Assembly: GCF_900113005.1 (NCBI RefSeq)
Contig: NZ_FONW01000017.1
Location: 1 to 64,000, forward strand
Length of the DNA stretch: 64,000 nt
Source: Sunxiuqinia elliptica
GTDB lineage: Bacteria; Bacteroidota; Bacteroidia; Bacteroidales; Prolixibacteraceae
Direction of reading: 5' to 3'
This document shows, piece after piece, positions 1 to 12,920 of the stretch. Numbering within the stretch: position 1 is the stretch's first letter; every line of letters begins with the position of its first letter. The translations under genes and the position numbers were made by a program. Under the pieces are notes generated by a model. It searched no databases and was not told where the DNA came from. It saw only the letters and a list, made by a program, of their open reading frames with translations.

Positions 1-335
1 GGTCTGCTTAACGAGATTGCGGCGCTTTACTTGTAAAAACTGAAACAGGGAAATGTAGTATTTGTCTACTGATAGAAGGTTGTTTTTACGGGATATTTAT
101 CAGCGTAAGCTATAGAAACCATATTGGGTTTTCTTTAGCCATTGAGGATTCCTGTATAAGTAAAAGGAAGGTCCGAGAACCTCCCCTTATACAGTGTATC
201 CGTAAAGAGTATTGCTGACAGGTTGCTCCCCAGCAGAGCCTGCGTCCTCTTCCTCTTTACAAGAAATAAAGATAATATACTTAGATTTAAAAAGTTATAG
301 CGAAAATAGTTTCAAAATAATACTCCCTAAGTTTG
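1..335. other. non-coding left edge with one hairpin
   Basis: I see no convincing gene here. A plus-strand frame that is open from the window edge stops with TAA at 34-36 and could be the last dozen codons of a gene outside the window, but it is too short to name. An inverted repeat at 152-160 and 186-194 (9 bp, perfect) could form a hairpin, without a clear T-tract after it. Confidence 0.35.
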
Positions 336-340
336 GATTA

Positions 341-463
341 CAACATAGAAGGGGGAGATGGTTGCGTGGTAATTCCCTGTCAAACCGCTACGCAGTTTGA
401 GCGGGCTGCGAAACTTGACATTTACCACATAGCCTGCCATTACTTATACAAAATGTTATGGGC
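341..463 (-). repeat. attC-like recombination site, diverged, at the left end of the cassette array
   Basis: Read on the minus strand it starts with GCCCATAAC and overlaps the last codons of the FRG gene. The central arms 360-372 and 422-434 pair with a few wobbles, and an inner stem-loop lies between them. The outer right arm (341-359) no longer pairs with the left one and ends in GTTG rather than GTTAGSC. It is therefore either a site with a long unpaired spacer or a decayed site. It follows the stop of a minus-strand gene, as an attC should. Confidence 0.5.
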
Positions 464-1552
464 TTTTTTTAATTCATTCATCAAATACTCTAAATTTTCT
501 GTCATTTTCCGAATGTCATCTTTTCGTATTGAAGCTGGATTGTGTACTAATTTATTCCTAAAATTCCTTAGATAGTCGAGTTCTTTCAAATAGTTATAAG
601 TTTGCTCCTCATTTTCCATTAAGATGAAAAGAGCTTTTCTCATATTGAATACGTTTCTTTGATATTTTTTAGCTCGTTCCAAGATGATGGATTCAATTTC
701 AGTCCATAATTTCAAGAACAATCCTAAATCACTGTCCTCGACTTCTGGCTGTAAATCAAGTTTTAAATTATCACAAATATCTTTGATGATGTCATTGTCA
801 GGATATAAAGCATTTTCAGGAATTCTATCAAATTCTGCATTCCAAAATTCATCAGAGTTTGGAATTTCAAATTTTGCAATCAATCTTTGGTTTAAGTCTA
901 ATTCTCCTTTATTTACGTATTCGTTAGTAATATCCTCAGTTCCTACAAGGTAACCCTCTTGAAAGTATGGTCTTAATGCAGATGGAGGCGTAATACTTAA
1001 CAGTCTAATATTTACTAAGTCGTGTTCTGAGTTTATAGAAATCCTGTTTGAGTAATAAGGAAGTCCAAAAACATAAATAAATGCAGTTTCATTTTCGTTA
1101 TACAACTGAGCAAAAGAGCAAGCCACCCTCAAAGATTGAGTAACGTCTGACAAGGGAGTTCCAGTTACTTCATAATGTTGCAATACACTCCACTGAATAT
1201 ATTTTTTCCTTTGTAGTTCGTGATATCCTTCAATCTTTTGGCTTTTGAACTCCTGAACCAACAGTTTACAAGCACTTTTAAGTAAGTCAAATCTGTAATT
1301 TAATTCTTGCTGAGTCAAATATTCTCCTCTGTATATTGTCGGATAGAAAGTTGAAACACCTGCTTTATTTTGATAATCATTCTTTTGTCCTCGATAAAAA
1401 AGCAAATAATCTTTATTCAGATATGATAGTTTAGCGACTTGTTCAACTAGTTCCCTAAAAGAATTAATTCTGTATCCAGGGTCTTTTCCAACAGTTTTAG
1501 GAGTTGTATGGTTTTTCAACTCAGCCGTTAGTTGTCCATAAATTTGTCTCAT
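440..1552 (-). CDS. FRG-domain protein with a C-terminal HEPN-like domain
   Basis: This 370-aa protein has an FRG domain in its first two thirds: the FYRGQ motif lies near residue 54 and a QHYEVTGTPL segment, the FRG counterpart of QHYGLPTRLLD, near residue 126. The last third is helical and ends in RNFRNKLVHNP; its R332-x4-H337 spacing is the RNase-type motif of HEPN domains. FRG proteins are widespread but of unsettled function, and HEPN domains often act as RNases in toxins and anti-phage systems. A toxin or defence role is an inference. The gene is AT-rich, lies in the array of attC-separated cassettes, and shares its cassette with a small Gly-rich gene upstream. There is no signal peptide, so it is probably cytoplasmic. 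Confidence 0.8.
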   Translation of the reverse strand: MRQIYGQLTAELKNHTTPKTVGKDPGYRINSFRELVEQVAKLSYLNKDYLLFYRGQKNDYQNKAGVSTFYPTIYRGEYLTQQELNYRFDLLKSACKLLVQEFKSQKIEGYHELQRKKYIQWSVLQHYEVTGTPLSDVTQSLRVACSFAQLYNENETAFIYVFGLPYYSNRISINSEHDLVNIRLLSITPPSALRPYFQEGYLVGTEDITNEYVNKGELDLNQRLIAKFEIPNSDEFWNAEFDRIPENALYPDNDIIKDICDNLKLDLQPEVEDSDLGLFLKLWTEIESIILERAKKYQRNVFNMRKALFILMENEEQTYNYLKELDYLRNFRNKLVHNPASIRKDDIRKMTENLEYLMNELKKAHNILYK

Positions 1553-1586
1553 TAAATAACCTCTTTACATTAGACTTTAAAAATTG

Positions 1587-1620
1587 AAATACGGACAGAA
1601 AATTTTACCTATCCGTATTT
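1587..1620 (-). terminator. hairpin between the Gly-rich gene and the FRG gene
   Basis: Positions 1587-1598 and 1609-1620 form a 12-bp stem with one wobble and a 10-nt loop. On the minus strand it follows the stop of the Gly-rich gene and is followed by a T-rich stretch ahead of the FRG start. It could end the small transcript or attenuate readthrough into the FRG gene. Confidence 0.5.
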
Positions 1621-1633
1621 TAAGTCATACAAA

Positions 1634-1795
1634 TTATTTTTTACCACCACCTTTAGAGCCTCCACCTGATTTTCCACTGCCAGAAGATTTTCCTCCTCCT
1701 GATGAGTTGTTACTTCTTCCACCACCAGACTTGCCACCTGTTGTTGATGGCCAACCCCCAGCATTTCCTTGTCCTGATTGTCCTGTTTTTCCCAT
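1634..1795 (-). CDS. Gly/Ser/Lys-rich mini-protein, 53 aa
   Basis: The minus strand encodes a 53-aa protein starting MGKTGQSGQGNAGGWPSTTG and ending GGGSKGGGKK. It has 22 Gly, 11 Ser, 7 Lys and one Arg and no acidic residue, so it is strongly basic and probably disordered. The antisense frame is an open Pro-rich frame, an artefact of the Gly codons. The gene begins the same cassette as the FRG gene, about 90 nt after the cassette junction. A 9-codon frame (1820-1849) precedes it. Small Gly-rich proteins with a GGWPSTTG segment occur in Bacteroidota, as far as I recall without known function. An RNA-binding or antitoxin-like partner role for the FRG protein is only a guess. Confidence 0.6.
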   Translation of the reverse strand: MGKTGQSGQGNAGGWPSTTGGKSGGGRSNNSSGGGKSSGSGKSGGGSKGGGKK

Positions 1796-1880
1796 GATTA
1801 ATTAAATTTAATTTGGCACCTACTTCTGTTTAAAGTCTTTTTTCGGCATGTTCCGACTCTATATCTCGGTTTTAATTGCC

Positions 1881-2662
1881 CGCTAACGGTCACTTGGTCG
1901 AGTAGACCGGGGGAATTTCACCCCCAGCCTCTCACAGAACCGTACTTGACAGTCTCCCGTCATACGGCTCTTCTAATATAGCTTGTTCTATAAAGCTCAT
2001 CCCCTTTCAGGTTGGCAAAAGATTTAACTATATCAGCTAACCCCTTCGCTCCATTCCCATTACAGAAACTTCATCACTACTACGGCTCAGTCCGTCCCAG
2101 TACATCGCATTACTATTCGGCCTTCAGGGTGTGCCTGTTGTGCCTTTCGCTTACCATCAATGTGACTGGTTCCCGAGTTCCGTAAATAAGCCCGGATATA
2201 AGTCCTACCGCCTGAAAGACGCCTGCCGCACAGCCAGTAAACAGGTCCCCGCTGTACTTATCGTTGCATAACATACGCTACAACTTTTGACAGAATGTGG
2301 CCACTTCTCGACTCCTCTTCAAGGGTTCACTTGCGTTCAGCTCCTATATTCACACCTGATATAATCGTGCTATATCTTTTCCTAAACGCTCAGCACCATG
2401 CCTCTTAAACACAGCACCTTTAGGTGGTTTGATGCCCCCTCCTGTAAGGCGACACCAGTGTCCTGTTGCTCGTTTGCAACTTCCACCATCTCAATTACAG
2501 TATGCAATGAACTTTATTTTGCCGATTCATCGCTTCTCGGCACACTATGTGGTCGTTGCGGATTTCGGAGCTCGTTCCTGTCCGGCAGGACGGAACGATG
2601 TTGCGAGAATCCAGCGAACGACACACCACGAACCCCGCAATGCAATTTACAATTTGTTAGCG
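1881..2662 (-). repeat. attC-like site A, interrupted by a group II intron
   Basis: The two halves are 2546-2662 and 1881-1896. On the minus strand the site runs from CGCTAAC (2662-2656) to GTTAGCG (1887-1881). Without the intron it is 133 bp, the same length as site B, and aligns with it end to end. The arms TTGTAAATTGCATTGCGG and CCGCAACGACCACATA pair imperfectly around a variable middle, as in attC sites. It overlaps the stop codon of the gene at 2647. Confidence 0.75.
1897..2545 (-). mobile_element. group II intron without a reading frame, inserted in an attC site
   Basis: The minus strand carries domain V: GAGCCGTA pairs with TACGGTTC around a GACGG-GAGA-CTGTC hairpin, with the AGC catalytic triad near its 5' side. 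Domain VI follows as a long stem with a G-run opposite a C-run and a single bulged A seven nt from the 3' end, the expected branch point. The 5' end is GTGTG, matching GUGYG, and the 3' end is AC, matching AY. The 649 nt have no reverse transcriptase frame; domain IV is only about 70 nt. Excision would rejoin ACCACATA with CAAGTGAC and restore a 133-bp attC. It could be mobilised only by a maturase acting in trans, or be a fixed relic that still splices. Confidence 0.85.
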
Positions 2663-2871
2663 GTAGTAATTTCAATTTTAACTATATCATCTGTGTTTAA
2701 ATCTTCATCCGTTTCTAACTGTAAAAATGTGGAATTAATTACAACTCGATTTTGTAAAATAATTCCGTTTTTCAAGTATAAGTCAACAACTTGATAACCC
2801 ATTCCTTGTTCTGGTTGAGTTTCCAAATACTCGACAAATTTGTCTTGAAGTTTAATATTCTTTTGGCTCAT
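2647..2871 (-). CDS. GMGYQ-domain protein, short form, 74 aa
   Basis: I do not recognise a named family. The 74-aa protein contains PEQGMGYQVVDLYLKNG in its first half, followed by NRVVINSTFLQL and a final acidic strand. The same pattern opens the neighbour upstream (PETGMGYQIIDAIQEGK, RFVVYNTELVV), so the two genes share a domain by duplication. The start ATG overlaps the stop of the neighbour by one base (TAATG), implying translational coupling. The stop codon falls inside attC site A, which is usual for cassette genes. No signal peptide or membrane segment is seen. A two-component toxin-antitoxin or immunity pair is conceivable but unproven. Confidence 0.7.
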   Translation of the reverse strand: MSQKNIKLQDKFVEYLETQPEQGMGYQVVDLYLKNGIILQNRVVINSTFLQLETDEDLNTDDIVKIEITTANKL

Positions 2872-3557
2872 TAATAAGCAGTTTTTCTGAAGAACGTATT
2901 GTTTGAAGTCCCGTTTTTAAAATAAGCTTCAATTCCTCCGCCGTCGTGACCAAAAGCTGGTTGTACAATTCCTCTTTGAAGTTTATCGTAAGATTTGGGT
3001 TGTATGTAAAAAGCCCATTTTATTTCTTCGTTATTTGGCAAAGCATATCTGTCAACTGGGTCATCATTATATCTTTTGCAAGTTTGATAGTCAACGTAGG
3101 TTGTTGTATAACTACCACTTTTTAACTTCTTGTTGTCAAAGTCAATTCTTTTATCGTCTTCATATGCAGAAAGTCTAACAAAAATTTCCTCCCCATTTGC
3201 ATATTCTTCTTTATTATCAGTTGCACCACTACCTCCAGTGAATCTCCCTTTTTCTGTCATTTTTGACTCAACTAATACTCTGAATTCTAAAATCTTGGAA
3301 CGGGAGACGAATTGAAAATCTTTTAGTTCCAAATAAGGTGAACTTGCTTTTATAGAAGAGTATCCTTCATTGATTATTTTTCTTTTGTATAAATCAAAAT
3401 CAGAGTCCAGATTGACAACTAATTCTGTATTATAAACAACAAATCTTTGTGAAGAATATTTTCCTTCTTGAATGGCATCAATTATTTGGTAGCCCATTCC
3501 TGTTTCAGGCATTTCAAGTAATTGAGATTTTAGTGATTGTCTTGCTTCAAATATCAT
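2871..3557 (-). CDS. GMGYQ-domain protein, long form, 228 aa
   Basis: This is the first gene of its cassette and starts about 30 nt after the recombination junction, leaving little room for its own promoter. Residues 1-55 hold the GMGYQIID domain shared with the 74-aa neighbour. The remainder is unrecognised, with a central charged part, a segment IKWAFYIQPKSYDKLQRG and a C-terminal AFGHDGGGIEAYF motif with a GTSNNTFF tail. No signal peptide or transmembrane helix is visible. AT-rich base use matches the other cassette genes and differs from the core genes to the right. The function is unknown; joint inheritance with the 74-aa gene in one cassette suggests that they act together. Confidence 0.75.
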   Translation of the reverse strand: MIFEARQSLKSQLLEMPETGMGYQIIDAIQEGKYSSQRFVVYNTELVVNLDSDFDLYKRKIINEGYSSIKASSPYLELKDFQFVSRSKILEFRVLVESKMTEKGRFTGGSGATDNKEEYANGEEIFVRLSAYEDDKRIDFDNKKLKSGSYTTTYVDYQTCKRYNDDPVDRYALPNNEEIKWAFYIQPKSYDKLQRGIVQPAFGHDGGGIEAYFKNGTSNNTFFRKTAY

Positions 3558-3582
3558 AATGTAGGTTTTTAGTTATTATTAC

Positions 3583-3715
3583 CGCTAACGGTCACTTGCA
3601 AGTTGTCGTTGCGGATTTCGAAGAGCGTCTGTGTCCGGTAGGACATGACGGTCAAGAAAGGAGCAGAGACAACGCACACCACTGCACCCGCAATGCAATT
3701 TGCAATTTGTTAGGC
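3583..3715 (-). repeat. attC-like site B, intact, 133 bp
   Basis: On the minus strand it runs from GCCTAAC (3715-3709, fits RYYYAAC) to GTTAGCG (3589-3583, near GTTRRRY). The arms TTGCAAATTGCATTGCGG and CCGCAACGACAACTTGCAA are inverted repeats with small bulges, and the middle is a longer irregular hairpin. It lies 10 nt after the stop of the gene at 3725, the normal position for a cassette attC. Its length is at the upper end of the usual attC range. Confidence 0.75.
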
Positions 3716-3724
3716 AATCGTGCT

Positions 3725-4342
3725 TTATTTCTTATTCATTATATTAATCCAATCACCGATGAAAACTCTTATCCCCCTTGATGCTTGAGTCATATAATGT
3801 GCTGCTGCTATTTTTTCAGTGTTTGAAATAAATTCATCATTTTTTCTTATTCCTCCTGTCATAATTTCACCATCAATAGAATAAGATGAGTTAATATGAT
3901 TTATACTGAGATGTACGAATCCACTTCCTGCTTTATAAACATCATCGACCCAGCTCAACCCTTTTATTTCTTTGAGCCTTTCGACTAATTCGAAATCTTT
4001 CAATTTTTTCTTTCTAGTCTTGTCCTTCAAGTTGCTAATTTTTTCGCCCCTTCTTACTTTTTGAGCGAAAGTCTCATAATCAAATTCCGATTGTGATGAT
4101 GCAAACAATCGCAATAAACTGTCAAGATTTAGTCTCACGAGTGGTGCAGCCGCAATGTAATTTGAATCATTTATCAAAGTTATAAAGCCTCTATTCAAAT
4201 TGATTGTTCGATTCAAAATTGCTGTGCAAAAAAGAGAAAATTCAGTCATTCCGATATTTTCTAAAAGTTGTTTCCCGATTGAAATCAACTTATCACCTTC
4301 ATTTTCTAACTCTATTAAATATTGTTCAAGTTCGTCTTTCAT
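3725..4342 (-). CDS. DUF5677-like cassette protein, 205 aa
   Basis: This 205-aa helical protein has a run IAAAPLVRLNLDSLLRLFA near residue 65 and GSGFVHLSINHINSS near residue 140, resembling the HEPN-like DUF5677 families in layout. I do not see a clean R-x4-6-H motif, so RNase activity is not indicated. There is no signal peptide. It starts 11 nt after a GTTAGGC core (4359-4353) and ends 10 nt before attC site B, so it alone fills one cassette. The family match is by eye and uncertain. Expression probably depends on a promoter outside the cassette or on one I cannot recognise. Confidence 0.7.
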   Translation of the reverse strand: MKDELEQYLIELENEGDKLISIGKQLLENIGMTEFSLFCTAILNRTINLNRGFITLINDSNYIAAAPLVRLNLDSLLRLFASSQSEFDYETFAQKVRRGEKISNLKDKTRKKKLKDFELVERLKEIKGLSWVDDVYKAGSGFVHLSINHINSSYSIDGEIMTGGIRKNDEFISNTEKIAAAHYMTQASRGIRVFIGDWINIMNKK

Positions 4343-4352
4343 ATTGCATGTT

Positions 4353-4359
4353 GCCTAAC
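4353..4359 (-). repeat. attC core (GTTAGGC) at the right end of the array
   Basis: GTTAGGC on the minus strand sits 11 nt before the start of the 205-aa gene, where the preceding attC or attI should end. The sequence further upstream (to about 4490) holds a GCTACC/GGTAGC palindrome (4450-4478 region) and a direct repeat of TGTTCATATTTT, but I cannot align it convincingly with sites A and B. No integrase gene lies beyond it. Confidence 0.45.
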
Positions 4360-5443
4360 TTACTTATCTGTTCATATTTTTCAACTCTACCCACCATATA
4401 TTGCTGGATATGTTCATATTTTATGGTTTTACAGTTCAAAGTCCCCAAGCTACCGCGCGATTGCATCGCCTGGTAGCCGTTTATAACAAGACCATGATCC
4501 AAGCCCCTTCGCCACTCACCAAGCTTCCTCGCTGCTAAGGCTTATTCTCACCAACTCCCCAAGATACGCCTTTTCATAAACTAAACAGTACGGGAATGCT
4601 CAGTTTTAGGGCGCTCGGGCTGTTTGTCGGGCAGGGCAGGACTCGGGACCAGATTTAAACCTTTGCTATTATCTTCTTTTTCAGACTTTTCTAAAGCAGG
4701 TATTTGTTGGTATTATGCTGAAAAACATAAAATTATTGGGAGACAGTAGGCTTTGCCGCTTCCCTTTCTTGTTCATAATGATTATTTTTAATAAGTCGTT
4801 TCAAATCAGCTGCTTATTTATTCAGTTAACCGTAAAACCAGAAAACACGCCTGAAAAGACATCCCCCTGAAGCTTGGAGACTCGCTTCGTGCTTGAAATG
4901 ACTCTCCAAAGCATTGGATTCACCCAAAAAAGTTCTTTGACAAGCCAACCGACTGCTTCAATTGGTTTCCCGGGGGCTTAAACTGCCCGGCCTAGTGCTT
5001 GGTACACTGAAAAAAGTGCTCTGTATACTAAAAAAAGTGCTCCGGACACTCAGCCGAGCAAAAAAGGAGTGTTTTAAGTGCTCGGAATTGTGTTTCAACG
5101 GCTCCGCTGAGTGTTTCAAGTGCTCGGTTTGGTGTTTCAACTACTCGGTTTTGTGTTTTAATCACTCCGCTAAGTGCTTGAACTTCCCGGCTGAGTGTTT
5201 GAACTTCCCGGAATTGTGTTTCAACTTGTCGGCCTGGTATTTCAACTAAAAATGAGGGGTTTCAAACGCCCCGAAGTAAACGTTCAACGCTTCAGGCAGC
5301 ATCTTTAAGCCAAGCCATAACCCTTAAGGGTAGTCAATCGCGAATCGGAGTTCGCGACACCTGACAAACAGCCCTCCGATGAAGCTTATCCTGAAAAAGT
5401 AGTCTGACCGGACCAGCGAATTATAAATCTAAAAATTACAAAA
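4360..5443. other. 1.1-kb region without a supported gene
   Basis: Apart from the possible attC remnant near 4360-4490 and the 21-bp tandem repeat at 4974-5246, I find no gene or RNA signature. The GC content rises across this interval, marking the change from the AT-rich cassettes to the chromosome proper. An open frame across the repeat on both strands results from the repeat period being a multiple of three. Confidence 0.5.
4974..5246 (+). repeat. 21-bp tandem repeat, about 12 diverged units
   Basis: Units begin mostly with GTGTTTCAA or GTGCTT and contain a CTCGG or CCCGG core. Clear unit starts are 5069, 5090, 5111, 5132, 5153, 5174, 5195 and 5216, with a partial unit at 5237. More diverged units start at 4974, 4995, 5016 and 5037, then an 11-bp break. 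Because 21 is a multiple of three, both strands stay open and would encode 7-residue repeats (for example CFKCSEL on the plus strand). It is not a CRISPR: there are no spacers. Confidence 0.85.
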
Positions 5444-6154
5444 ATGAGAAAAAAGACAGTTACCGTAAACTTCAACATTGCTCTCTCTGCTCTTTATACC
5501 TTTGCCATGGCCAAGATCGGTTTTATGTTACGCGATTTGGTTGAGTTTATTAAGTATGGGGTTACCGAAGAAAAGCTCAACGCCCTGAAAGCCATGCTGA
5601 CTGACTTTGCCAACATTCCGACCGATGATGAGCTGGTAGGGGTGCAGGTAAGTGCCACCCAGGAAAAAGACGAGGCAGCCATCCAGCTGCGCGATGCCAT
5701 TGCCGAAATTATGCAGCGCGTGGAAAACAAGTTTGGTGCACAATCGGGCAACTACCGGAAGTTTGGCGTTTCAGGCGTCAGCGACCTGGACGGTGGGAAG
5801 CTGAGCTATGTGACCCGGCGGGTGCACCGGGTAGCCGAAACCATGTTACCCCAGCTGGAAAGCGAAGGGCTGACACCAGAACTACTGACCGAACTGAACT
5901 CCCGGCTGGATACCTACGAACAAGCACTAAGCAAGCAGGAAGACGCCATTGCCGACCGCGACATTGCCACCGAAAACCGCGTGGAAAAAGCCAACGAAAT
6001 TTATGCCTTGCTGGTGAAATACTGCAATACCGGCAAACAGATTTGGGAAGATACCAATCAGGCCAAATACAACGACTACATTATTTACGACACCCCAACC
6101 GGCAAACCCAAAGATAAAGACAACCAGGAAGTCCTGAGCGAAACCGAACAGTAA
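5444..6154 (+). CDS. unrecognised 236-aa helical protein
   Basis: I do not recognise this family. The 236-aa product is mainly helical: a moderately hydrophobic N-terminal part (about residues 8-40, not a clear signal peptide), a charged middle ending in a GVSGVSDLDGGKLSYVTRR segment, a coiled-coil-like stretch around residues 145-190, and a short acidic tail. It is more GC-rich than the cassette genes to the left. It follows the 21-bp tandem repeat by about 200 bp and is followed by REP hairpins, the first of which starts 34 bp after the stop and may end its transcript. It may belong to a repeat-associated gene family, but one copy in this window cannot show that. Confidence 0.7.
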   Translation: MRKKTVTVNFNIALSALYTFAMAKIGFMLRDLVEFIKYGVTEEKLNALKAMLTDFANIPTDDELVGVQVSATQEKDEAAIQLRDAIAEIMQRVENKFGAQSGNYRKFGVSGVSDLDGGKLSYVTRRVHRVAETMLPQLESEGLTPELLTELNSRLDTYEQALSKQEDAIADRDIATENRVEKANEIYALLVKYCNTGKQIWEDTNQAKYNDYIIYDTPTGKPKDKDNQEVLSETEQ

Positions 6155-6187
6155 ATTTATTCTTCTAGTTCCCAGGTGCCTTTAACT

Positions 6188-6220
6188 ACTGAGGGTCTCA
6201 CTTCGAGTGAGGCCCTCAGT
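6188..6220. repeat. REP hairpin 1
   Basis: A 15-bp stem (6188-6202 and 6206-6220, one wobble) closes a TCG loop; the core is CTCACT-TCG-AGTGAG. It is the first of four related hairpins around and inside the RAYT gene and may also serve as terminator for the gene at 5444. Confidence 0.8.
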
Positions 6221-6255
6221 AGCATCATATGGGCTCATGTTAGCGTCTCACTTCC

Positions 6256-6290
6256 TAGTGATCAGGTGACTCCAAGTCACCTGATCACTA
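6256..6290. repeat. REP hairpin 2
   Basis: A perfect 16-bp stem (6256-6271 and 6275-6290) closes a CCA loop; the core is GTGACT-CCA-AGTCAC. It lies 55 bp beyond the RAYT stop codon, so it may end RAYT transcripts. Confidence 0.85.
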
Positions 6291-6345
6291 AGCTTCATAT
6301 GCAAGCCATTCAACGACTCCAGCAAAGAAATCACCCGATCGGCTC

Positions 6346-6960
6346 TTAGCGATAAACCAAGCCAAATTCCTGGGCTCGTTTTTTATTTACCAGCGTTTCG
6401 TTTCGTAAGCCGGCATAATCACGGGCTGAAGAAAACTCCCACTCCTCCATTTCATTGACGAGCATATCTTTTACCGGGTTCGCATGAATGTAATCAAAAC
6501 AGACTTGAGGATAGGCTTTCTCGGGATGGTCAACATGAATCATCGCTCCATACTTACATTGAAACCAGGCAGGAGAAATACCATCATTGCAGGTTAAGCA
6601 AATCGCCTTAGTTCTGTTTTGAAAAAGGCTGCCTGTGCGGCTTTCTTGTTTCTGAATAGCCCGTGTATAGGATCGCAACAAAATAGCAATTGAATCATTA
6701 AACGAACGTGTTCTATTGAGCAGGTGACTTCGAGTCACCTGCTCAATACGCTCAATACGCTCCATATGCAAATCATTCACATGCACCATCAAATGAAAGT
6801 GTGTTGGCATCAAACACCAAGCTAAAATATCAGCATGAGGTAAAACATGAGTTCTGATTTTTTCAATAAAGAACAAGTAGTTGTCACGCGTAAAGAACAG
6901 GCATTGCGAGTTGTTTCCCCGATTGAAAATAGGAAAAATATGGTCGGTTTCAAATTCCAC
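6346..6960 (-). CDS. REP-associated tyrosine transposase (RAYT, IS200-like fold)
   Basis: This is a Y1-type single-strand DNA transposase. The HUH motif is in CLMPTHFHLMVHV, and the likely nucleophile Tyr is in LLRSYTRAIQKQE, followed by RTGSLFQNRTKA as in this branch of the family. RAYTs act on REP hairpins, and four lie nearby. I chose GTG at 6960 because related proteins begin with an FETDHI.. segment there; a longer frame from TTG at 7014 would overlap the mutS-like gene and adds 18 residues that look like flanking DNA. A REP hairpin (6715-6747) is inserted in frame and adds 11 residues between the HUH and Tyr motifs, in a spot likely to be a loop. Both motifs are intact, so activity is possible. 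Confidence 0.85.
   Translation of the reverse strand: MEFETDHIFPIFNRGNNSQCLFFTRDNYLFFIEKIRTHVLPHADILAWCLMPTHFHLMVHVNDLHMERIERIEQVTRSHLLNRTRSFNDSIAILLRSYTRAIQKQESRTGSLFQNRTKAICLTCNDGISPAWFQCKYGAMIHVDHPEKAYPQVCFDYIHANPVKDMLVNEMEEWEFSSARDYAGLRNETLVNKKRAQEFGLVYR
6715..6747. repeat. REP hairpin 3, inside the RAYT coding sequence
   Basis: A perfect 15-bp stem (6715-6729 and 6733-6747) closes a TCG loop; the core is GTGACT-TCG-AGTCAC. Its 33 bp equal 11 codons, so the RAYT frame is kept. It is followed by a short direct repeat (CTCAATACG). Confidence 0.85.
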
Positions 6961-6997
6961 GGCTTGATTCGAAATTGGTTGCTTTAAATTACGACTT

Positions 6998-8929
6998 TCA
7001 TACAAGCCCGGCAAACCTTGTTTTGGACAATGAGGGTTTCACTTCAAGTGAAGCCCTAACTTCTTTACAATTCACGATAGGCTCCGAAGAACTGGGGAGA
7101 TTGGCTAATATTTTAATTCCGCTTCTTTCCATCAGTTCACTTGCGTTAAAATCATTGCAAATAACCGGCTCAAGTTTGTAGCTGAAATACATGGAGCCAT
7201 TTTTAATTTCACTGTTAAAACTATAGTTGGTCACTAAGCTTTTACTTCCGGATAGTTTGGCCAGTTCAATATCGTGTGTTGCAATAATGCCTGATGTTTC
7301 AAGCTCACTGATTTGATTAATCAACGAAAAGCCACCACGATGCCGATCTTCGGAGTTTGTTCCTTTAAACATCTCATCCAACAGGAAAAAAACGTTTTGA
7401 CTACTTGCGATGAGTTGCAGCATCTTTTCAATTCGCCCCAATTCGGCATAAAAAGAAGAAATTCCTTCCTTCAAATTATCCTGGGTACGCATACTTGAAA
7501 ACAGCTTAAGGTTCGACACCCGTCCGCTTGTTGCACAGCAAGGAGCGCCAGCCAGGGCCAGCACAATGTTAACGCCTACCGTTCTTAAAAAGGTGCTTTT
7601 TCCTCCCATGTTGGAGCCCGTAACCATCACTACCTGCCCATGTCCTTCTGAATGAAAATCATTACATACCCGCTTTTCCGAATTGATTAACGGATGCCCC
7701 AGGTCCTCAAACTGAACGTAGTTGTCGTCCTCGCTTATCTCCGGGAACGTATAGGCAGGGTTGGAATAGCAAAAACCGGCAAAACTGTTGATCACTTCAA
7801 ACTCACTTACGACTTCAGCCCACCCTTTCAAAAACACTTTATTTTTTGACTTCCACTTTTCGGTGGCAATAATCACGTAAATATCAATGAGCAGGAAACG
7901 GTTTAACAGTGGGTAAAGGTAATTTCCACCTACCGGAATCTTTTTGATGCCCCGTTGCTGTGAAAATTCCAATAAGCGACACAGCTTCTTAATTTCATTG
8001 AACGCCGAATACTTGCTTTTCTTCAGAACAGCCTGCAATTCGCACAATTTTTTGGACTTGAAATTTTCCCGTTCAATCTTATCAATCAAGATCTGGTAAC
8101 CTTTAAGGGTTTTGATATTTTCTTGAGACGTTTTAACGATATCTTCGGCCAGGGAATCCACTTTTCTTAAGACAAGGATATTGATTACAAAAACAGCAAG
8201 AAAGGGAATGATATAGTCAAACCGATTAGGGGAGCCGATATTGGCGATGGAAAAATAGAAACCAAGTAACGCCAGGATTGAAAGGAATATGGCGAGCGCG
8301 GTATAGATCGCTCTATTTTTTAACAGCACGATGGGAGCCTCTACCCATGCTAACAATTTAGAATAATCACTTTTCTTATTTTGAAAGTGCATCCCCGAGG
8401 CCTGAAAATCCTGCCTCCAATCCAGCTTTTGAGCCAACTCGCGGATAGCTTCCTGCCGATCATGAATTTCCTTGTTCGGTGCCGGCTCCGACAGCCATTC
8501 CGATAAACGCATCGTCCCGGACTCTGTTGTTGTTCGATTAACCAACTGAAAAATGGAATGCTGACCAAAAATATCCAGATCGGAGGTATACGGATGATCC
8601 GGATTAACAAACTGCTGCCCGGGATCAAAGCCTCCAAGCGTCGATTGCTCTCTTGAAACTTCGGCTTCATTGATCTCTTTCAGGAATGCAGTATGTTTTT
8701 TTAGGAAAGCTATTTTGTTGTGATATTTGACTGAAGCACCGAAAACAACCAGCAACAGTGGCAAAACAATCAGAATAGACGTAAACAACCGGAGATTAAA
8801 CAAGTAGATCAGAATGCCGCATGAAAGAACAAAAATAAATAAGCGTAGTAAGGAAATACGACTCAACAACTTACTTACTTGCTGCAGCTTGGCGTCGTAC
8901 TTATTTATGTAGTCTCTGTAAATTTTCAT
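6998..8929 (-). CDS. membrane-anchored MutS-like ATPase
   Basis: The C-terminal third is a MutS-type ATPase: Walker A GSNMGGKST near residue 430, Walker B FFLLDEMFKG near 515, followed by a THD-type motif ATHDIELAKLS. The middle is the helical lever/clamp region. The first 90 residues have two transmembrane helices (LLRLFIFVLSCGILIYLF and the next hydrophobic run), and another pair lies near residues 205-260. The mismatch-recognition domain of MutS is missing, so this is the 600-aa membrane MutS relative common in Bacteroidota, whose role is unknown, not the repair MutS. The last 20 residues run through REP hairpin 4 and beyond, suggesting that REP insertion replaced the original stop. Confidence 0.85.
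   Translation of the reverse strand: MKIYRDYINKYDAKLQQVSKLLSRISLLRLFIFVLSCGILIYLFNLRLFTSILIVLPLLLVVFGASVKYHNKIAFLKKHTAFLKEINEAEVSREQSTLGGFDPGQQFVNPDHPYTSDLDIFGQHSIFQLVNRTTTESGTMRLSEWLSEPAPNKEIHDRQEAIRELAQKLDWRQDFQASGMHFQNKKSDYSKLLAWVEAPIVLLKNRAIYTALAIFLSILALLGFYFSIANIGSPNRFDYIIPFLAVFVINILVLRKVDSLAEDIVKTSQENIKTLKGYQILIDKIERENFKSKKLCELQAVLKKSKYSAFNEIKKLCRLLEFSQQRGIKKIPVGGNYLYPLLNRFLLIDIYVIIATEKWKSKNKVFLKGWAEVVSEFEVINSFAGFCYSNPAYTFPEISEDDNYVQFEDLGHPLINSEKRVCNDFHSEGHGQVVMVTGSNMGGKSTFLRTVGVNIVLALAGAPCCATSGRVSNLKLFSSMRTQDNLKEGISSFYAELGRIEKMLQLIASSQNVFFLLDEMFKGTNSEDRHRGGFSLINQISELETSGIIATHDIELAKLSGSKSLVTNYSFNSEIKNGSMYFSYKLEPVICNDFNASELMERSGIKILANLPSSSEPIVNCKEVRASLEVKPSLSKTRFAGLV
7033..7057. repeat. 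REP hairpin 4, at the 3' end of the mutS-like gene
   Basis: An 11-bp stem (7033-7043 and 7047-7057, one wobble) closes a short loop; the core is TTCACT-TCA-AGTGAA. It is translated as part of the C-terminus of the mutS-like product and lies just upstream of the RAYT gene. Confidence 0.75.
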
Positions 8930-9320
8930 GCGTTTATCCTTAAAACCAAGACATTAGACCCAAGACACCAGATAAGGTAAGTTGTTAACCATCAGCCTTT
9001 GTGTCAATTTTCCTTGCCATGGATGTTTATAACTGTTTATTTTTTTATCGCAACGCCCACCTGTCCGGCTTGCGCGGTCAGACGGGAAACCCACTTCTAA
9101 TTACACTCCTGTGTGTAAGCTAATTGCCACGCCCGTTGCATCTCTTATCAATAGCGGGTTTGCCTACTCGAACGCCAAGGTACAGTTTTTTGCACACTCT
9201 CAATACGACAAACTCAACGGAAGTAAGAGCAAAAAAGTTCTGAAACGCCTCTTTTCCCCTTGAATAAACAGTAAAAATCCTTACTTTTAATGATAGTCAG
9301 CTAACGCAAAAGCAAAGTTT
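8930..9320. other. intergenic region between divergent genes
   Basis: This 391-bp stretch separates the minus-strand mutS-like gene from the plus-strand lipocalin gene and must hold both promoters. I see no RNA gene or repeat. A near-consensus box TACTTTTA (9282-9289) could be the lipocalin promoter element. Confidence 0.4.
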
Positions 9321-9848
9321 ATGCACACTCAAGTCATTCGTATCATGTTTCTTGTTACCCTTCTTTTTTCCTGTCAACCCAAGCAGTCGGTCATTGACAA
9401 AACCACCATCAAAGAGTTGGATCTTGAGCGCTATATGGGCACTTGGTATGAAATTGCCCGTTTCCCACATTCTTTTGAGAAAGATTTGGTTGGTGTTACG
9501 GCTAGTTACCATTTACGCGACGATGGAAAAATTGATGTGATTAACGCTGGCTACAAAAACAGCCTGAACGGCCCCTACGAAGAAGCCAAAGGCAAGGCCA
9601 AGATGCCTAATCCGGAAAAGCCCGGAGAACTGAAAGTGGCCTTTTTCTTGTTCTTTTATGCCGACTATAATATTCTGGAGCTTGCCGACGATTATTCCTA
9701 TGCCTTAATTGGAAGTTCAAGCCCCAAGTATTTATGGATTTTAAGCCGGACGCCTCAACTGGAAGAAACAACGTACCAGCAGCTGGTTCAAGAAGCTCAA
9801 AAACGAGGGTATGATACCAGCCAGCTCATCCGTGTTCCGCAGAAATAG
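9321..9848 (+). CDS. lipocalin-family lipoprotein (Blc-like)
   Basis: The N-terminus MHTQVIRIMFLVTLLFSC is a lipoprotein signal with LFSC as lipobox, so the protein should be lipid-anchored, probably in the outer membrane. The lipocalin signature follows: LERYMGTWYEIARFPHSFE near residue 37 with the conserved G-x-W, and the Blc-type segment YALIGSSSPKYLWILSR near residue 130. At 175 aa it fits bacterial lipocalins, which bind lipids or other hydrophobic ligands, often under envelope stress. The true ligand cannot be read from the sequence. The following gene begins about 100 bp later in the same direction and may be co-transcribed. Confidence 0.92.
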   Translation: MHTQVIRIMFLVTLLFSCQPKQSVIDKTTIKELDLERYMGTWYEIARFPHSFEKDLVGVTASYHLRDDGKIDVINAGYKNSLNGPYEEAKGKAKMPNPEKPGELKVAFFLFFYADYNILELADDYSYALIGSSSPKYLWILSRTPQLEETTYQQLVQEAQKRGYDTSQLIRVPQK

Positions 9849-9945
9849 CTAAAAAATGTTCCGCAAAACAAGGAAGTGTCTGAACGAACGCGCAACACAC
9901 CAAAAAATACGTAACTTTGAGCATACGCAATTTAAATTGGCAACT

Positions 9946-11355
9946 ATGAAATCAGGACTACTCTGGCTTATCCTTCTTTTATTGACTGTTTTAAATCCCG
10001 CATTGGCGCAGGACACGATTACAACAACAGGCCAAAAGCCGTTGATTTACAAGTTCAATATCAAAGAAAATATTGCACCGGCAGTATGGCGACAAACCCA
10101 GCAGGCCTTTGAGGAAGCAGATAGTCTTGATGCCGATGTAATTTTAATCCATATGAATACGTATGGAGGCACCGTTCTCGATGCCGACTCCATTCGTACC
10201 AAGATCTTAAATAGCACACGTCCGGTTTATGTGTTTATCGACAACAATGCAGCCAGCGCCGGTGCCCTGATTTCAGTGGCCTGCGACAGCATTTTTATGC
10301 GCAAAGGAGCATCGATTGGTGCAGCAACTGTGGTGAACCAAACGGGCGAAAAGATGCCGGACAAATACCAATCTTACATGCGCTCCATTATGCGGGCAAC
10401 GGCCGAGTCTCATGGTGGCGACACCATCATTAGCGGGCAGGATACCACCTTCCAATGGTTCCGTGACCCCAAAATTGCCGAGGCCATGGTTGATGAAAGC
10501 ATTTACATCCCGGGCGTTATTGACACTGGCAAAATATTGACCTTCACCCCATCGGAAGCTATGAAATATGGCTTTTGCGAAGGAATTGCAGAAAATGTTC
10601 CCGAGGTGCTGGAACAAATAGGCTATGAAGATTACGAACTGGTTGAATACAAGCCGACCGCTTTGGAAAAACTCATTGGCTTCCTGGTTAACCCAATGGT
10701 TTCCGGCTTACTAATCATGGCTATCCTGGGAGGTATTTATTTTGAAATGCAAACCCCTGGCATAGGCTTCCCACTGATTATTGCCATCGCTGCTGCCTTT
10801 GCCTACTTTGCACCACTCTACCTCGAAGGCCTTGCTGCTAATTGGGAAATCATGTTGTTCATTGTCGGACTGATTCTGATTGCCGTTGAGATCTTTGTCC
10901 TCCCGGGCTTTGGTATTGCCGGACTACTCGGAATTACGCTGAGCTTTACCGGGCTTGTGCTCAGTTTGCTTGATAACATCAACTTCAATTTTGAAGGTGT
11001 TCATCCTGAAAAAATACTCTCCGCCCTCACCACGGTTATTGTTGCCTTGTTTGGAGGTTTTCTGCTCAGCTTGGTACTCAGCAAAAGGTTGTTTACGGCT
11101 AACTCAGGCGCTTTTAAAAACTTGTCGCTGCACTCAACTCAGGAAAAAGAAGAAGGTTTTGTAGGCGTTGATACCAGCTACAAATACTTGGTTGGACACA
11201 AAGGCGTTGCCTACACCGTTTTACGCCCTTCAGGAAAAGTTAAAATTGAAGGAAAAATTTATGATGCCGTTGCCGGACTGGGAATGATTGATCGCGGAGA
11301 TGAAGTCATTGTGATTAAAGCAGAAGCGGCCCAGCTATACGTTGAAAAGGCGTAA
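9946..11355 (+). CDS. NfeD-family membrane serine protease (long form, NfeD1b type)
   Basis: I start the gene at ATG 9946, because the signal peptide MKSGLLWLILLLLTVLNPALAQ begins there; a frame extending to 9856 adds an unlikely charged leader. The 469-aa protein has a ClpP-like periplasmic protease domain (NTYGGTVLDADSIRTK; catalytic Ser in NNAASAGALISVA), then four to five membrane helices (about residues 225-390) and a C-terminal OB-fold NfeD domain (GVAYTVLRPSGKVKIEGK). Long NfeD proteins cleave membrane proteins such as stomatins and often work with flotillin partners; here a separate short NfeD sits beside floA at 23.1 kb. It follows the lipocalin gene. Confidence 0.88.
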   Translation: MKSGLLWLILLLLTVLNPALAQDTITTTGQKPLIYKFNIKENIAPAVWRQTQQAFEEADSLDADVILIHMNTYGGTVLDADSIRTKILNSTRPVYVFIDNNAASAGALISVACDSIFMRKGASIGAATVVNQTGEKMPDKYQSYMRSIMRATAESHGGDTIISGQDTTFQWFRDPKIAEAMVDESIYIPGVIDTGKILTFTPSEAMKYGFCEGIAENVPEVLEQIGYEDYELVEYKPTALEKLIGFLVNPMVSGLLIMAILGGIYFEMQTPGIGFPLIIAIAAAFAYFAPLYLEGLAANWEIMLFIVGLILIAVEIFVLPGFGIAGLLGITLSFTGLVLSLLDNINFNFEGVHPEKILSALTTVIVALFGGFLLSLVLSKRLFTANSGAFKNLSLHSTQEKEEGFVGVDTSYKYLVGHKGVAYTVLRPSGKVKIEGKIYDAVAGLGMIDRGDEVIVIKAEAAQLYVEKA

Positions 11356-11562
11356 GAAAGGCAGAGGTAAAAAAAGGCACAGACACAGGCAAAGGCAAAG
11401 AAAAAAGAGCAGGCACAGGCAAAGGCGAAGGACCAAGAGGAAAAATTGAAACAGAAACAGATAAAAGTTTAAGAATAGGCCTGCTATTTAATGAACGGTT
11501 CGAGCTGCCAAGCCCAAATCAAACTTTTTCATCTTTTACTTCTTTTTCGATCTAAACAATTC

Positions 11563-11570
11563 TACTTTTG
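11563..11570 (+). promoter_or_regulatory. TAnnTTTG -7 box before the permease gene
   Basis: TACTTTTG matches the Bacteroidota -7 consensus and lies 38 bp before the start codon; no clear -33 TTTG is seen at the right distance. Confidence 0.5.
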
Positions 11571-11600
11571 CATTGCTTTTAATAGTGTAAAGGAGATGTG

Positions 11601-12920
11601 ATGAAGGAGTTTATAATCAATTACCTGGAAGAACTAATTTATTTAGTTAATGAAATGGCCCCCTGGTTATTGCTGGGACTTATATTTGCGGGCCTGCTCA
11701 AAATATTTTTCCCTCAAAACAAGGTGCAAAAGTACCTAGGCAAACCAACAACAAAATCTGCTGTCAATGCATCCTTGTTGGGTATCCCAATGCCACTTTG
11801 TTCGTGCGGGGTTATTCCCACAGGCATTTCCTTTTTTCGCAATGGCGCCTCCAAAGGAGCAACCAACTCGTTCTTGATCTCCACGCCTCAAACCGGAGTT
11901 GATTCAATCTTAGCCACCTACTCCATGCTGGGTTGGCCATTTGCCTTGCTACGCCCCATCGTCGCCTTTATAACCGGTATTGCTGGAGGAATTTTAACCA
12001 ACCTGCTTGTCAAAGAAAAGCCTGCTCCTCAAAATCCATACGCCAATTTTAAACTGGATACCCAAGCACTGGGAAAACAACCGGATGCGGCTAGCTGCAA
12101 GGACGACAGTTGTGGATGTCATGAAGAAAAAGCACCTAAAGGCAATGCTTTTGTTCGAGCAACCCACTACGCCTTTGTTGAATTACTGCAAGATATTGCC
12201 AAGTGGCTCATCATTGGATTTCTGATTGCTGCTTTTATTTCAGTGATCTTACCCGATGACTTTTTCAGCTCGTTCAGGGGCTGGGGATTCCTCGAAATAC
12301 TGATTATTCTGGCAGCTTCAATCCCTCTCTACATCTGTGCAACAGGTTCCATACCCATTGCGGCCGTTTTGTTATTAAAAGGTGTTTCGCCTGGTGCTGC
12401 CTTGGTTTTTCTAATGGCCGGGCCGGCAACCAACGTCGCTACGATGACAGTTATTGGCAATACCATGGGACGCAAGTCCTTAGCCGTTTACCTTGCGACC
12501 ATCACCGGAGGAGCAATCCTGTTTGGTCTGTTAATAAACTGGCTTATCCCTGCCGACTTATTTATGTCACAGCTAGTCCACATCCATGGCGAGGAAGGTC
12601 ATGAAATGCTTCCCCAATGGTTGCAAGTAAGCTCAACAATCCTTTTGTTTGGATCGCTTATTTTTGGTTATTTTTATGAGCGTTTTGAAAAGTCGCAAAA
12701 AACAAACACCATGAAATTAACCACATTGAAAGTTGAAGGAATGACCTGCTCGCACTGTGAAGCCAGCGTGGTCAGAAACCTTTCGAAACTAGATGGTGTT
12801 GATGAAGTTTTTGCAGATAAAAACACCTCGGAAGTTCGATTAAAAGGAAAGCAATTCGACCTAAACGAAGTGGGACGCGTGTTAACAGAAATTGGCTACG
12901 ATTACAAAGGCGAAATCTAA
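11601..12920 (+). CDS. SO_0444-type Cu/Zn efflux permease with fused HMA domain
   Basis: The main part is a DUF318/ArsP-type permease with about eight to ten membrane helices. It shows the typical PMPLCSCGVIPTG motif (metal-binding Cys pair) near residue 66 and the second half repeat ICATGSIPIAAVLLLKG. A cytoplasmic loop after about residue 155 has a Cys/His cluster (SCKDDSCGCHEE), likely metal-binding. The last 70 residues are a heavy-metal-associated domain with GMTCSHCEASV. The likely role is export of Cu or Zn; the fused HMA domain would deliver metal. I prefer ATG 11601 over GTG 11598; AAGGAG lies just upstream. It overlaps the next gene by one base. Confidence 0.9.
   Translation: MKEFIINYLEELIYLVNEMAPWLLLGLIFAGLLKIFFPQNKVQKYLGKPTTKSAVNASLLGIPMPLCSCGVIPTGISFFRNGASKGATNSFLISTPQTGVDSILATYSMLGWPFALLRPIVAFITGIAGGILTNLLVKEKPAPQNPYANFKLDTQALGKQPDAASCKDDSCGCHEEKAPKGNAFVRATHYAFVELLQDIAKWLIIGFLIAAFISVILPDDFFSSFRGWGFLEILIILAASIPLYICATGSIPIAAVLLLKGVSPGAALVFLMAGPATNVATMTVIGNTMGRKSLAVYLATITGGAILFGLLINWLIPADLFMSQLVHIHGEEGHEMLPQWLQVSSTILLFGSLIFGYFYERFEKSQKTNTMKLTTLKVEGMTCSHCEASVVRNLSKLDGVDEVFADKNTSEVRLKGKQFDLNEVGRVLTEIGYDYKGEI

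Follow-up and report, generated by a model that had tools for sequence, protein, structure and literature searches.

How does a group II intron without a reading frame come to lie inside the recombination site (attC) of an integron cassette, reading in the direction of the cassette genes, and what could have moved it there? The question is raised by a 64,000-nt stretch of Sunxiuqinia elliptica DNA, here called the window, which comprises bases 1–64000 of contig C7 (75.6 kb) in a genome of 5.1 Mb and 26 contigs. Near its start, a short cassette array occupies the minus strand, with genes at 4342–3725, 3557–2871 and 1552–440. The features of the array, in the order in which they are read, are as follows.

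3725–4342, minus strand: preceding cassette gene, 205 aa, with a DUF5677 match under the cut-off
3583–3715, minus strand: intact attC of the preceding cassette, 133 nt
2871–3557, minus strand: cassette gene whose attC carries the intron, 228 aa, no Pfam match
2546–2662, minus strand: 5′ part of the interrupted attC, with R″ CGCTAAC at 2656–2662
1897–2545, minus strand: ORF-free group II intron, 649 nt, with a 5′ GTGTG (2545–2541) and a 3′ AC (1898–1897)
1881–1896, minus strand: 3′ part of the interrupted attC, CAAGTGACC followed by R′ GTTAGCG
440–1552, minus strand: gene downstream of the intron, 370 aa, FRG domain

Judged from its sequence and predicted structure, the insert is a group II intron. 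Its recognisable parts are listed below.

2546–2551, minus strand: IBS1 CACATA, the last six nt of the 5′ exon
2354–2487, minus strand: match to Rfam RF01999 (group-II-D1D4-2, part of domains I–IV), cmscan 95.5 bits, E 3e-18
2270–2275, minus strand: likely EBS1 UAUGUU in a hairpin loop, intron positions 271–276
1993–2018, minus strand: core of a compact domain IV, including a hairpin that precedes the RT start codon in relatives carrying a reverse transcriptase (RT)
1897–1972, minus strand: domains V/VI, RF00029, cmscan 63.6 bits, E 3.6e-10

The predicted fold of the intron reaches −219.4 kcal/mol (z −4.68; 0 of 20 shuffles were as good) and leaves an unpaired A at 1903, 7 nt from the 3′ end. 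The two ends conform to the group II consensus (GUGYG at the start, AY at the end), and the domain V triad reads AGC (GAGCCG, by eye). When domains I–III of the window intron were aligned with those of nine relatives, a common fold of 123 pairs was obtained with 98.3% of cells paired. In this fold, which was predicted from the same 10-sequence alignment, 56 pairs show both-sided changes, compared with a mean of 25.6 in shuffles (0 of 500 as high). No RT is encoded in domain IV of the intron or anywhere in the window. The initial annotation, made from the sequence of the window, had described a group II intron without a reading frame in an attC-like site, its GTGTG and AC ends, a branch-point A 7 nt from the 3′ end, the absence of an RT and an orientation shared with the cassette genes. 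All of these points held, the first of them in the comparison with Infernal group II models that the annotation had proposed.

The split attC at 1881–2662 measures 782 nt, and subtracting the intron leaves 133 nt, the length of the intact attC at 3583–3715, as had been calculated previously. The insertion point lies in the L′ arm, and the R′ core GTT starts at base 10 of the 3′ exon. A hallmark of real cassettes is that the R″ of the attC is complementary to the R′ ahead of its gene. In the intron-bearing cassette, R″ TACCGCTAAC is complementary (by eye) to GTTAGCGGTA, the R′ ahead of the gene. Pairing of R″ with the R′ of the next cassette is not a requirement, and automatic selection of R″ was wrong in several of ten copies.

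The best candidate for a canonical integron integrase (IntI) is a recombinase on contig C23, which scored 207.4 bits against TIGR02249 (cut-off 265) and 218.6 bits against NF040815 (cut-off 220). This tyrosine recombinase of 377 aa (L023 4761–5894), below the integron-integrase cut-offs, is situated upstream of the C23 cassettes in the same direction. Short pieces matching its C-terminal end lie near cassettes on C8, C13 and C11 (L026, L027 and L028), and no piece of it was found within window positions 1–12000. Positions 4980–5250 of the window hold imperfect repeats of about 20 nt (tgtttcaa..gctcgg, by eye) in a region without a convincing gene.

Group IIC-attC introns (S.ma.I2 and relatives) also belong to group II and also home into attC within cassette arrays. 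They belong to class IIC, insert into the bottom strand, mostly at TTGT/T, and lie antisense to the cassettes (PMC7923331, PMC4424553). In contrast, the window intron is a sense insertion in the top-strand L′ arm, carries an AGC triad and likely uses a 6-bp EBS1–IBS1 pairing. Its location in an attC and its lack of an RT would also be expected of a IIC-attC intron that had lost its RT and come to face the opposite way by chance. This origin is highly improbable, as IIC introns read CGC in domain V (PMC7923331), the insertion is in the top-strand L′ arm and not at the bottom-strand TTGT/T of R″, and the RTs found at the shared site form a group of their own. Furthermore, an intron on C11 of the same genome does read CGC and lies antisense to the adjoining genes. 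Membership of the group IIC-attC family was therefore rejected on triad, strand, direction and target; the triad and the target position refute it unless the definition of the family is widened. The initial annotation had used these introns as its comparison class, and the window intron now appears to belong to a different lineage.

The C11 intron (L028, 11499 to ~12103, minus strand) represents a second intron type without an RT ORF; it matches RF02001, RF01998 and RF00029 and stands beside cassette genes. On C3 (L029, ~9001–10000), a broken RT gene with stops is followed by a CGC-type domain V/VI that scored 39.1 bits, just under the Rfam cut-off.

The lineage to which the window intron belongs was traced through its DNA and RT relatives. 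DNA matches to the intron occurred in 53 of 295 genomes of the order (E 1e-10) and in 20 of 60 genomes of the family (1e-8), many of them short and covering domain V/VI only, with at most two candidates scored per genome in the order scan and at most nine in the family scan. RT matches were obtained in 31 of 395 genomes of the phylum (1e-60), 28 of 393 of the order (1e-50) and 10 of 60 of the family (1e-40). RT loci were taken from the matches listed, and some weaker matches of the phylum scan lie outside this sample. Among the resulting 64 RT loci, nine, including the RT of the Sunxiuqinia genome itself, are at least 66% identical to that RT. The R′ core GTT stands at +8 to +10 of the 3′ exon in all nine, whereas it starts at +6 to +11 in 5 of the 51 other RT introns with a readable 3′ exon, which are at most 58% identical. 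Four of the other 55 loci dropped out of this comparison, two in which no domain V was found (L094, L095) and two with a 3′ exon cut short (L136, L156).

In an RT tree of 61 rows, from which L037, L094 and L095 were excluded, the nine attC-site introns fall on one side of a branch with support of 100/100. Six families of the order are represented among them, together with G492, a genome of the same class outside the order. In relatives, whether or not they carry an RT, the insertion point is in the L′ arm, with 7 to 9 nt between it and the R′ GTT. The RT-based count of 9/9 versus 5/51 is the one relied on here, rather than that from 33 author-chosen 3′ exons, in which GTT lies at +8 to +12 in 31, is missing from G727e and is at +9 in G050. 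A congener (G717) holds a full-length ORF-free copy that is 90% identical and has attC-type exons. The ORF-free copies of G107, G012, G279, G066, G089 and G187 have no GTT in the 3′ exon. Three loci with RT relatives were found in named genomes, none with an attC-type 3′ exon, and all 464 plasmid records with an RT match were below 60% identity. G717 and G704 gave no RT match in the family search, and G262, G114, G187 and G777 are absent from the 28 RT-positive genomes of the order; contigs often break at these repeats.

The orientation seen in the window recurs among the relatives. The longest upstream ORF is on the intron strand in 27 of 28 copies with at least 500 nt of upstream sequence, and the remaining copy has no upstream ORF of 60 aa. 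In 24 of these 27 copies, 90 to 250 nt separate the insertion from the end of the nearest upstream ORF of at least 90 aa; for G717c, the nearest ORF above this length has 127 aa and is on the opposite strand. A crude test for an L′/L″ duplex, in which only 15 of 29 5′ exons reached P ≤ 0.05, is not counted as proof; for the window copy, the partner that it picked was not the expected L″.

The choice of target by base pairing was examined from the last six nucleotides of the 5′ exon, which vary among copies (AACTTA, AACTTG, CACATA, CATATA, TTCATA and others). In a scan of exon windows against intron positions 1–319, positions 271–276 against exon −6 to −1 gave the top paired fraction, 78 of 84 in 14 copies, with each copy pairing at five or six of the six positions. 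By permutation z-score, the same combination ranked third, behind intron 66–71 (only 45% paired) and its own shifted version. Permutation of the exons reached 78 pairs in 3 of 200,000 trials; when each distinct combination was represented once (12 copies, 66/72 pairs), the figure was 27 of 200,000, and these values are not strict probabilities because the copies are related. The scan used 14 of the 31 copies, most others ending or breaking off before EBS1. G727d was excluded for want of a 5′ exon, G134b and G717b for deletions, and G096 and G089 were added afterwards (81/96 pairs; 4 of 200,000). G096, which has a deletion in domain I, pairs at 2 of 6 positions, and G089 at 1 of 6, or at 6 of 6 if shifted by one base (by eye).

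Positions 271–276 lie in the loop of a covarying hairpin (helix 14) and, from their pairing with the exons, likely represent EBS1. The 6-bp EBS1–IBS1 pairing with the 5′ exon that characterises group IIB introns is found in the 14 copies, G096 and G089 being off register. No second clear pairing corresponding to EBS2–IBS2 appeared in the scan of intron 1–319.

Within the Sunxiuqinia genome itself, there are eight matches to the intron. The 5′ halves on C8 and C20 are of the window-copy type, with 2 differences over the first 248 nt, and their domain IV is not seen; C22 holds an ORF-free 3′ half whose 3′ exon differs from that of the window copy. C13 and C23 carry intron 5′ ends of another subtype, while two intron 3′ ends of a third kind are present on C20 and C3. 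The 3′ end on C20 is preceded by 305 residues of a group II RT with a maturase domain; the gene runs off the contig end, its N-terminal part lies outside the assembled sequence, and no further domain match follows the maturase domain. A comparison of the sibling RT (P0001) with the whole genome at E ≤ 0.001 found it only here and as the broken piece on C3. The initial annotation had reported no RT and had called for a genome search for other copies and a maturase; sibling pieces and this partial RT are what that search returned. Attached attC-like exons are seen at the 5′ ends on C8, C13 and C23 and at the 3′ ends on C20 and C3. The 5′ half on C20 and the 3′ half on C22 adjoin genes that do not look like cassette genes, and may be the two ends of one copy; the C20 half (C20a; L′/L″ duplex P 0.22) is not clearly placed within an attC.

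On this evidence, the window intron is probably an ORF-free member of a non-IIC group II lineage that homes into the L′ arm of attC, in the cassette direction, with an RT acting in trans. The ribozyme domains, the covariation, the exact insertion point, the EBS1–IBS1 covariation and the RT-carrying siblings at the same point can each be read from the DNA itself. The action of a sibling RT on the window intron in trans is likely because an RT of the matching clade is encoded by siblings inserted at this point, including one in the same genome; the trans-mobilised origin suggested by the initial annotation thus gains weight. It is proposed that a sibling-encoded RT would bind the retained domain IV hairpin, aid splicing of the intron from the cassette transcript and carry the ORF-free intron RNA into new attC sites. 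Splicing would mend the cassette transcript while the attC DNA stays interrupted, and ORF-free and RT-carrying introns would swap segments, such that the small form tracks the local RT and target preference. The earlier suggestion that splicing keeps the cassette site functional at the RNA level had to be abandoned: attC recombines as a folded single DNA strand (PMC7923331), so splicing cannot restore it, and only the transcript between cassette genes would be mended.

A compact domain IV of about 70 nt is common to ten ORF-free copies from ten sources (the Sunxiuqinia genome, G717, G262, G096, G114, G187, G704, G129, G107 and a Tenacibaculum plasmid), and an eleventh copy, in G777, was found by motif. 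With at most 3 mismatches allowed, 6 of 393 genomes of the order, all from different families, contain the 26-nt motif, and none contains its reversed control. The motif includes a small hairpin that stands directly before the RT start in RT-carrying relatives, with all three pairs kept in 19 of 21 sequences and a middle pair of CG in 7, TA in 13 and TG in 1. Because domain IVa of group IIA introns binds protein (PMC2882425), this hairpin is, by analogy, a candidate for RT binding in trans.

The ORF-free relative on Tenacibaculum finnmarkense plasmid CP116296.1 (L033) has an attC-like 3′ exon, TACAAATCGTTACTAATAA, and no clear 5′ end, and it lies just before a tyrosine recombinase gene. In G777 (L216), an ORF-free intron lacking about its first 245 nt directly follows an R″-like AAC and runs into GTT, so that an intron remnant is found in place of the attC stem.

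Alternatively, an RT-carrying intron may have inserted at this site and then lost its ORF, leaving a relic that may splice but has never moved in its ORF-free form. Introns without an IEP are described in a review as splicing-only (PMC4424553), and deletion forms do occur: a 371-nt copy in G134 (L168 4560–4930) consists of the first 166 and last 198 nt of the RT intron of that genome. A relic is nevertheless unlikely, given the second ORF-free 3′ half on C22 with another 3′ exon, the 5′ halves of the same sequence type beside other 5′ exons on C8 and C20 (domain IV not seen) and the full-length ORF-free copy in G717. Copies from at least ten sources also have the compact domain IV in common, and EBS1 tracks IBS1 copy by copy; both observations argue against a relic. 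The 371-nt copy of G134 occupies an attC-like site of its own.

Comparison of the parts of the intron pointed to exchange between ORF-free and RT-carrying forms. In a tree of domains I–III (25 rows), the two forms are mixed, with 9 label changes, at least 4 of them forced by well-supported branches; this count is approximate because of the long branch of G114, which is of odd composition, and insertions in some rows. Several ORF-free copies are placed next to RT copies from their own genus or family (G262 with G776; the window copy and G717 with G707, G723 and G710). A 30-row tree built from the opening 66 nt of the domain IV region, by comparison, gathers all 12 ORF-free rows on the same side of a branch (90/88, present in 91% of bootstrap trees), with 1 label change. 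For so short a stretch, convergence following loss of the ORF could produce the same arrangement.

The window intron is itself a mosaic, as outlined by one further feature.

2055–2297, minus strand: mosaic tract, intron positions 249–491, departing from C8, C20 (5′ half) and C22

Relative to C8, the window copy has 2 differences over positions 1–248 and 30 over the next 109; relative to C22, it has 24 differences up to position 491 and none over the final 158. It is identical to C13 over intron 239–314. The tract includes EBS1. No domain IV is visible for C13, which probably belongs to the RT type, because its 5′ half resembles that of G725, whose matching contig starts carry an RT. With the window IBS1, CACATA, the copy's own EBS1 forms 5 of 6 pairs and the C8-type EBS1, UAUGUG, would form all 6, a difference suggesting that replacement of the tract followed insertion. 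The tract might instead be an assembly chimera of two repeat copies, in keeping with the fact that seven of the eight matches in this genome run into or close to a contig end, where repeats confuse assembly. The chance of this is fairly small, as the window copy is internal to its 75.6-kb contig and the conflict between trees from many genomes also suggests exchange between ORF-free and RT forms.

The mosaic structure of the window intron and the disagreement between the domains I–III and IV trees, together with the intron 3′ ends that form part of several cassette ends in G725, could also indicate that ORF-free copies spread by recombination, through exchange of cassettes or homologous recombination between two attC sites or two introns, rather than by RNA-based homing. 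Only a slim chance is given to this, since exact 5′ and 3′ junctions at one position in differing attC sequences, with EBS1–IBS1 covariation, are the mark of homing. A more far-reaching version of the preferred trans-homing account is that the compact domain IV forms a non-autonomous, SINE-like module that is long-lived and of single origin. It would have spread between families, acquiring domains I–III of local RT introns (and hence EBS1) by recombination and so inheriting both RT and target, and the window intron would represent this process under way, an RT-type sibling having overwritten its EBS1 tract once it had inserted. This extension is tentative and rather doubtful as a whole.

Other introns reported from integrons share individual properties with the window intron. 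UHB.I2, H.ha.F1 and H.ha.F2, group IIB introns of halophile integrons (Sonbol and Siam 2021, PMC7923331), are likewise non-IIC, and UHB.I2 follows the cassette direction, but lies after an attC and not inside it. Compared by description only, the three are single or truncated RT-carrying cases, for which that account describes no ORF-free partners and no common insertion point. An Enterobacter cloacae integron intron (cited in PMC7923331) occupies the top strand of attC in the cassette direction, as the window intron does; unlike the latter, it is a single case of class IIC. TeI3 of Thermosynechococcus elongatus is ORF-less and mobilised by TeI4 proteins (PMC2882425). It resembles the ORF-free type described here in its single ORF deletion, retained domain IVa, good EBS/IBS pairs, several copies and an RT acting in trans, and the partial C20 RT of 305 aa likewise provides a related RT elsewhere in the genome. 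TeI3 is confined to one genome, whereas the type in the window combines a compact domain IV found in several families with varied domains I–III and an attC target.

A literature search that took in few subscription papers, and in which PMC7923331 came closest, found no lineage with a fixed L′-arm site or ORF-free partners of one, and no domain IV module common to several families; main-text passages of two surveys of bacterial group II introns (PMC3552965, PMC8919778) do not mention attC. Published introns at integron sites are mainly antisense members of class IIC. The existence of another lineage that specialises on attC from the opposite strand would show that cassette arrays have been colonised more than once, and, lying in the sense direction, such an intron could be removed from the cassette transcript. 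Bacterial introns that lack an ORF have been characterised as rare and short-lived (PMC4424553); in the present comparison they turn up repeatedly, in several families, and have a core in common. The comparisons suggest a family of mobile introns specialised on attC, in which small members would borrow the RT of large ones, and swapping of the EBS1 tract offers a testable route by which introns may change target.

Several cassettes of G725 that carry different genes have an intron remnant (domain V/VI, with the RT end in two cases) flanked by R″ and R′, and these remnants have become part of the cassette ends. An intron remnant therefore need not end the life of a cassette. Such cassettes (at L169, L170, L171, L173, L187, L189 and L191) end in a shared repeat and a 5′-truncated intron 3′ end, followed by the R′ GTT.
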